IMG/VR virus record: IMGVR_UViG_3300008113_000108
Location: 1-64,000 of that record
Source of the DNA: a virus
DNA: 64,000 nt
Strand: one strand, 5' to 3'
Position 1 is the stretch's first letter, and each line of letters starts with the position of its first letter. Shown here one piece after another: positions 56,132 through 56,440 of the stretch. A program made the translations under genes and the position numbers. The notes under the pieces are model-generated. The model ran no database searches and was not told the DNA's origin. It saw only the letters and a list, made by a program, of their open reading frames with translations.

Positions 56132-56138
56132 AAAGAAA

Positions 56139-56160
56139 GGGGGCATTTAGCCCCCTTTTT
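56139..56160. terminator. Bidirectional terminator between regA and the minus-strand gene
   Basis: AAAGGGGGC (from 56136) faces GCCCCCTTT with an ATTTA loop. The T-tract on the + strand (56156-56160) and the A-tract before the stem on the other side allow termination from both directions. Confidence 0.92.
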
Positions 56161-56161
56161 A

Positions 56162-56308
56162 TTATTTCATCGCCATTGCGAGTTGTGCTTGCTTAAGCCT
56201 TTCTTCTTTTTCAATTTGTTGACGAATAACTGTCAACCAGTTAGAAGCGATTTGATTTTTACGAGTTTCGGTGTCGTAATGAGCACCACGATAAGTTGCT
56301 TGTGACAT
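56162..56308 (-). CDS. YRG-motif small protein (DUF4278-like), 48 aa, minus strand
   Basis: Read on the minus strand from ATG at 56308 to TAA at 56162-56164. The start has a strong Shine-Dalgarno (AAGGAGAACCCTA). The N terminus MSQATYRGAHYDT carries the YRG-x-x-Y motif of cyanobacterial DUF4278-type proteins; the rest is a basic/acidic helix (VIRQQIEKEERLKQAQLA). It is preceded by the tandem structured leader and a late-type octamer on the minus strand. Function unknown; expression should be late. Confidence 0.75.
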   Translation of the reverse strand: MSQATYRGAHYDTETRKNQIASNWLTVIRQQIEKEERLKQAQLAMAMK

Positions 56309-56337
56309 TAGGGTTCTCCTTAGTTTTTTAGGTTAAA

Positions 56338-56426
56338 GAGCGTTCCTTCAGTCGGCTTTTGCGTCCCATTTGGGATGAACGATCCGTTCCGAGTCGGCTT
56401 ACTTCCGTCGCTATGAGCGATGAACG
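56338..56426 (-). ncRNA. Tandem structured RNA element in the minus-strand leader
   Basis: On the minus strand two about 44-46-nt units lie head to tail (56426-56381 and 56381-56338). Each opens with CGTTCATC, contains a short hairpin (TCGCT/AGCGA in unit A; TCCC/GGGA in unit B), then A-rich bases, AAGCCGACT and GGAACG. CGTTC pairs with GAACG in both units. The hairpin stems differ in sequence but keep pairing, which is covariation. The late octamer at 56433-56440 would start the RNA almost exactly at unit A. About 30 nt separate it from the Shine-Dalgarno of the YRG gene. Confidence 0.65.
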
Positions 56427-56432
56427 TATATC

Positions 56433-56440
56433 TATTTATT
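56433..56440 (-). promoter_or_regulatory. Minus-strand late promoter octamer (AATAAATA)
   Basis: On the minus strand AATAAATA, one mismatch to TATAAATA, lies immediately upstream of the tandem RNA element and downstream of the 106-aa minus-strand gene. Confidence 0.6.

Follow-up and report, generated by a model that had tools for sequence, protein, structure and literature searches.

The minus strand of the window, by which we mean the whole 64,000-nucleotide stretch analysed here, part of a 121,417-base virus record, encodes between positions 56426 and 56341 an RNA element that, judged from its sequence, is a glutamine riboswitch of a known class and is new as a variant: its two repeat units are interlocked, the inner aptamer core is circularly permuted, and in most sampled relatives small genes lie in its arms. 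The interlocked arrangement, called the composite fold below, is established at the level of sequence covariation. Our overall reading, a late-transcribed, interlocked two-core glutamine riboswitch that acts on translation of a small YRG protein, probably as an ON switch, strikes us as likely; the switching part is what we infer. From 56426 to 56341 the RNA runs CGUUC-A-UCGCUCAUAGCGA-CGGAAGUA-AGCCGACU-CG-GAACG-GAU-CGUUC-A-UCCCAAAUGGGA-CGCAA-AAGCCGACU-GAAG-GAACG. A sequence-only reading had described two head-to-tail units sharing the ends CGUUC/GAACG and the core AAGCCGACU, with two differing hairpins; these features are all present, and both hairpins (UCGC/GCGA and UCCC/GGGA) are fully paired.

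The same reading knew of no named family for the element; Rfam supplies one. Unit 2 (56337-56383, minus strand) matches RF01739 (glnA, the glutamine-I class) with 39.8 bits and an E value of 3.6e-5 over the whole window, above the gathering cut-off of 35 bits, and unit 1 is a weaker second copy (56385-56426, minus strand) that at 23.7 bits falls below it. For RF01704 (Downstream-peptide RNA, glutamine-II) the window scores 18.9 bits, below the cut-off of 33. PreQ1 and CRISPR-repeat matches, also below cut-off, were rejected as chance. The locus already carries a glnA annotation in the closest isolate, Synechococcus phage S-CREM1 (OP535465.1), where a 99-nt “riboswitch, glnA” (164232-164330) lies between regA and hsp20 as in the window; S-CREM1 has the same compact composite element, and its small protein is 81% identical. 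That element has been discussed as a glnA RNA (PMC9964418); it is annotated as one glnA feature, and the interlocked fold is absent from the part of that account considered here. By analogy with the family, the ligand would be glutamine. Other phage-borne glutamine riboswitches have been reported from the marine phages Melnitz and Mosig, in Melnitz at the tmRNA (PMC9004378). No earlier account of the interlocked form was found in the glutamine riboswitch literature searched, which lay outside the primary class papers (Klahn 2018; Ames & Breaker 2011).

Glutamine-I aptamers are built on a loop E motif and a three-way junction (PMC6698751), and the Rfam consensus, from which we took the sequences, gives the loop E strands as AGUA and GAA with P3 between them. 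In the window, unit 1 has AGUA without GAA and unit 2 has GAA without AGUA, and a junction of P1, P2 and P3 with loop E AGUA/GAA is found only in the composite outer core. On the covariation evidence set out below, this outer core is a normal glutamine-I three-way junction to which unit 1 lends its 5′ half and unit 2 its 3′ half. P1 of this core pairs CGUUC (56422-56426) with GAACG (56341-56345), both strands being invariant in all 36 distinct compact elements aligned, so that P1 itself yields no covariation. RNAalifold, unprompted, paired the unit 1 CGUUC with the unit 2 GAACG and added the inner hairpin GAACG-GAU-CGUUC. The P2a hairpin UCGCUCAUAGCGA (56408-56420) shows two-sided changes at all four counted pairs, with 100% of cells paired. 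It is followed by the outer junction CGGAAGUA (56400-56407), which holds the ligand-triple G (56406), the long-range base G56405 and the first loop E half, AGUA. The P3 5′ strand AGCCGACU (56392-56399), the unit 1 copy of the common core, covaries between units with the P3 3′ strand AGCCGACU (56350-56357), the unit 2 copy, after which the second loop E half, GAAG (56346-56349), completes AGUA/GAA across both units.

The inner core, reached through P3, is on the same evidence circularly permuted and consists of the hairpin GAACG-GAU-CGUUC, P2b and CGCAA. The hairpin, its capped P1 (56377-56389), has an invariant stem, appears in the unconstrained minimum free energy structure and includes the long-range partner G56384. 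P2b, UCCCAAAUGGGA (56364-56375), has two-sided changes at three of four pairs and 100% of cells paired, and the inner junction CGCAA (56359-56363) supplies the other long-range base, C56361. All these features lie on the minus strand. The outer core shares with glutamine-I P1, P2, P3, loop E AGUA/GAA, GGAACG, the long-range pair and a position as leader of a DUF4278-like gene; it differs in that its P3 leads to a second, permuted core, in that two sequence units are needed for one canonical junction, and in its absence from the host genomes sampled. The inner core resembles glutamine-II in CGUUCA, ACGCA, GGAACGG and a C-G long-range pair, and small YRG genes lie downstream in both cases; it lacks the pseudoknot order of that class, GGAACGG preceding CGUUC as a simple capped hairpin.

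The decisive base pairs run between the units and not within each, contrary to the independent tandem repeats of the earlier reading. Across the 36 compact elements, P3 drawn across units shows two-sided changes at four pairs, with a covariation score that 0 of 500 shuffles reached. The stems as a set covary over these 36 sequences as well, again with 0 of 500 shuffles attaining the score, which upholds the earlier suggestion that RNA structure is under selection. Sliding the P3 partner by one column lowers pairing in this alignment from 82% to 26-36%. A set of 403 elements that share the middle core-GGAACG-spacer-CGTTC-core was also gathered from phage genomes and viral contigs; many stand, as the sequence-only reading had anticipated, 5′ of small genes. 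Counts on this set come from pattern-based scans and describe the matches listed, not frequencies in nature. The P3 pair x8-y1 is never broken in the 327 long-core elements (0 of 5000 shuffles): the base that follows GCCGAC in unit 1 and the one that precedes GCCGACU in unit 2 form UA in 290, AU in 25, GC in 8 and UG in 4. The first core base of unit 1 likewise pairs with the last core base of unit 2 in 327/327; in S-SRM01 this pair is C-G where the window has A-U. A second core class pairs AGUCG with CGACU and AGUCA with UGACU, and one viral locus (L063) pairs AAACGAC with GUUGUUU. Most long-core elements carry mismatches, C-A and A-C, at two P3 positions. Concerted evolution between the units was rejected as the cause of the x-y covariation, the covarying x8 and y1 being non-homologous positions. 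P3 changes and the two states of the outer long-range pair described next are shared within clades by descent, and the counts therefore exceed the number of independent events.

A further discrimination comes from the long-range pair that closes the ligand site in both classes, C19:G41 in glutamine-II and its equivalent in glutamine-I (PMC6698751). We scored it as the base after ACG with the base after GAACG, using the glutamine-II numbering of PMC6698751 and our own mapping of the glutamine-I position, which is G and C in 76 of 77 single type-I aptamers from viral loci. Under the composite fold, the outer pair (G56405-C56340 in the window) is Watson-Crick in 403/403 elements, as G-C in 214 and C-G in 189, and the inner pair in 387/403, as C-G in 385 and G-C in 2. 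Folded as independent tandems, the same elements have a Watson-Crick pair in 190/403 for unit 1 (G-U not counted) and 189/403 for unit 2, and the window itself shows G-G and C-C mismatches.

These numbers bear on a rival reading, in which the two units would be ordinary glutamine-I aptamers, independent of each other and each closed by its own P1, giving a steeper glutamine response. Rfam does align each unit singly, and some glnA RNAs have been reported in tandem, with two cores per leader as here and no inter-unit pairing noted (Weinberg et al. 2010, PMC2864571); viral loci also include true tandems whose P3 is local. The window units, unlike those, interlock: only one half of loop E is present in each, P3 pairs drawn within a unit are broken in about one quarter of cells, and the site-closing pair does not form in roughly half of the units, both window units included. 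The composite P1 helices are also more stable than the tandem ones in 40/40 sequences, by 3.35 kcal/mol on average. We therefore rejected independent tandem folding, on the broken intra-unit pairs and the failed long-range pair, and regard it as very improbable for this element. The ordinary tandems seen in viral contigs (L015:3415-3520 and L020:3194-3302), each aptamer with complete local P3 and loop E, mean that viruses have both the ordinary tandem and the interlocked form. A covariance model of the composite fold scored the window, a training member, at 96.2 bits; outside the training set it scored S-PM2 at 94.0 bits and aligned the ORF-bearing element of DSL-LC03 end to end (226 nt, 70.5 bits). 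Rfam gives the composite halves separately, often below cut-off.

DNA similarity places the element in 207 phage records, all of them named cyanophages or marine viruses, which makes it common among sequenced cyanophages. The compact, gene-free form of the window is shared by S-CREM1, S-PM2, Bellamy and P-TIM68. Among cyanobacteria, RF01739 is present in 59/292 genomes; a pattern search for the composite middle found it in 0/386, and the composite model, run on 117 genomes, gave five weak matches of 52-60 nt, the size of a single aptamer. A composite element in host genomes was rejected on these two results, and the composite looks phage-specific in these samples. A pattern scan of genome contigs without an Rfam check hit chiefly unrelated bacteria and served solely as a route to two cyanobacterial genomes. 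Two phages have a manA RNA (RF01745, more than 180 bits) some 500 nt or less from the composite, upstream in P-SSM4 (L483:421-606) and downstream in P-RSM6 (L487:1359-1544).

Judged from anatomy, both cores may bind glutamine. The inner core has no loop E, however, and its site may for that reason not bind; in this alternative, only the outer glutamine-I core would bind and the permuted inner element would be kept for another reason, as a structural arm or as a site for a protein or the ribosome. A viral locus with an apparent natural deletion of the inner core (L128, upstream of 2001) fits such a role, since it is left with CGUUC-P2a-GACGGAAGUA-AGCCGACUUAAAAAGCCGACU-GAAGGAACGC and retains the outer core and the gene. 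Set against this, the inner long-range pair is kept in 387/403 elements, two of which have switched to G-C, and the bases that touch glutamine in solved structures (PMC6698751) are retained in the inner core. A single, outer binding site is a possibility we take seriously while holding it unlikely.

A stretch of 139-246 nt takes the place of the inner P2b hairpin in 261 of the 403 elements sampled, and it almost always contains an ORF, about 50 codons long. The start codon of this ORF sits at the P2 stem (UCUAUGG.../...AUAGA), and in 248/261 its stop codon falls within the core at a constant position, 13 or 16 nt in (for example ...ATAGACGCAAAAGCCGACTGA, ending IDAKAD). Core-to-core distances in the first ORF-bearing loci are mostly multiples of three apart (172, 175, 178, 181, 187 and 190). 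The ends of P2b covary across the ORF (UCUAU/AUAGA, UCCCA/UGGGA, UCCUUA/UAAGGA and others), and 16 of 25 distinct end pairs are fully paired, against a shuffle maximum of 11. Differences between the nested ORFs fall on the third codon position 14,435 times versus 7,220 and 2,875 for the other two, and single-change codons are synonymous in 9,941 cases versus 4,339 non-synonymous ones, counted over pairs that are not independent. These substitution patterns show coding selection on the nested ORFs, several of which carry annotations as hypothetical genes (PSSM4_169.3, PHM1_180, SSSM7_289). Examples within P2b include L204:2807-2959, L483:946-1119, L484:941-1117, L489:959-1138, L491:939-1103 and many IMG/VR loci, several matching PHROG 504. 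Many apparent split “half riboswitches”, a unit 2 3′ half with no 5′ half nearby, were discarded as such once an ORF of about 50 codons was seen to separate the two halves.

The outer P2a arm has an ORF-bearing insert in 89 elements; such ORFs, of about 64-75 codons, occur at L483:706-906, L484:708-911, L311, L317, L606 and other loci. They are homologous to the P2b ORFs (hhalign probability 95.8%), which suggests that arm-plus-ORF modules were duplicated. Over the first five stem positions of the P2a ORF arms, 54 of 65 cells are paired, no better than shuffles (mean 50.3, maximum 57), which leaves the position and homology of the ORFs as the grounds for the P2a claim. Translating a nested ORF and folding the aptamer would exclude each other, because the ORF begins within or beside the P2 stem and ends inside the core. 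We give even credence to the fuller proposal that this is a cyanophage two-site glutamine riboswitch, with the permuted second aptamer on the P3 arm of the first and genes cradled in the P2 arms, in which glutamine would silence the nested ORF and activate the YRG gene on a single RNA. No description of ORFs nested in riboswitch arms or of permuted glutamine aptamers was found in the literature searched, and an earlier account may exist.

Upstream of the element stands a putative late-type promoter octamer, AATAAATA (NATAAATA; AAUAAAUA in the window), at 56433-56440 on the minus strand, where the sequence-only reading had placed it. Motifs of the NATAAATA type are known from cyanophages (PMC2984593). 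The minus strand of the 64 kb window has just two copies of NATAAATA, at 56440 and 56793, one upstream of each of the two minus-strand genes of this region, and the plus strand has 17. In near relatives NATAAATA is retained 6-7 nt 5′ of the element, and the promoter is probably late. By eye, the octamer of the window is absent upstream of the S-CREM1 element, and S-PM2 and other phages have a sigma70-like TATAAT at the promoter site; timing may therefore differ between phages.

Downstream of the element, the Shine-Dalgarno sequence UAAGGAG (56316-56322) lies 7 nt 5′ of the AUG at 56308-56306 on the minus strand. Folding predicts that it is sequestered in a 7-bp helix with the anti-Shine-Dalgarno strand CUCUUUA (56334-56340), which begins at the base directly after outer P1 and is conserved in freshwater-type leaders. 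The strand opens with C56340, the outer long-range partner of G56405, so a closed glutamine site and a full anti-Shine-Dalgarno helix would compete, as far as anatomy indicates, for one base, and the two abut with no spacer between them. In the mechanism we propose, the leader RNA would begin at the late promoter just 5′ of the element and fold into a single interlocked glutamine riboswitch that has two glutamine-site cores, leaving the Shine-Dalgarno sequence of the YRG/DUF4278-type gene locked in the hairpin that starts directly after outer P1. At high glutamine the outer site would claim C56340, the anti-Shine-Dalgarno helix would fray, and the YRG protein would be translated. The ON direction is probable by analogy, since glutamine-I and -II riboswitches activate expression (PMC6316151).

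This expression platform is the weakest link of the proposal, because a paired Shine-Dalgarno sequence is predicted in 130 of 232 unique leaders only and is paired regardless of P1: with the energy model used, no alternative fold that frees it upon P1 formation was found, and its hairpin is present in all computed states. That constancy would also suit a glutamine riboswitch captured from a host and now a relic, serving as a glutamine-independent phage leader for mRNA stability or constitutive repression of the Shine-Dalgarno sequence, and in the clade of the window the late-type promoter would place transcription at a time when host regulation may no longer matter. Hundreds of viral elements nonetheless preserve, with covariation, the ligand-contact bases and the site-closing pair, consistent with continued binding, and we consider loss of glutamine sensing improbable. 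Among the functions offered by the sequence-only reading, the evidence favours a translational regulator, and nothing suggests a processed small RNA.

The gene behind the leader (56162-56308, minus strand) encodes a 48-residue YRG protein, as the mention of a YRG-motif small gene in that reading had implied. The protein looks modular, residues 1-22 resembling PHROG 5049 (YRG, DUF4278-like) and residues 23-45 PHROG 545, and many relatives share one half only. It has no match in Pfam, DUF4278 (PF14105) included; relatives do match DUF4278, some above cut-off. YRG is present in 385 of 389 genes downstream of the element, and of 95 related loci in viral contigs 80 were retained for the comparison. 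In the glutamine synthetase inactivating factor IF17, DUF4278 makes up the N-terminal part (PMC6316151), and from such anatomy it is plausible that the YRG protein acts on host nitrogen metabolism or its control. The neighbours are T4-like: the clamp loader proteins gp44 and gp62, regA, Hsp20 and a family B DNA polymerase. GGGGGCATTTAGCCCCC (56132-56165), bordered by A and T runs in the gap that separates regA from the convergent YRG gene, resembles a two-way terminator.

If the arrangement described here is true, single-aptamer models mis-annotate such interlocked RNAs. It would also be a natural case, not previously known to us, of two same-class aptamers interlocked by circular permutation and of protein genes housed in the arms of a riboswitch, and the way in which a lytic phage reads the nitrogen state of its host would become testable, as the question of which protein is made at which glutamine level.
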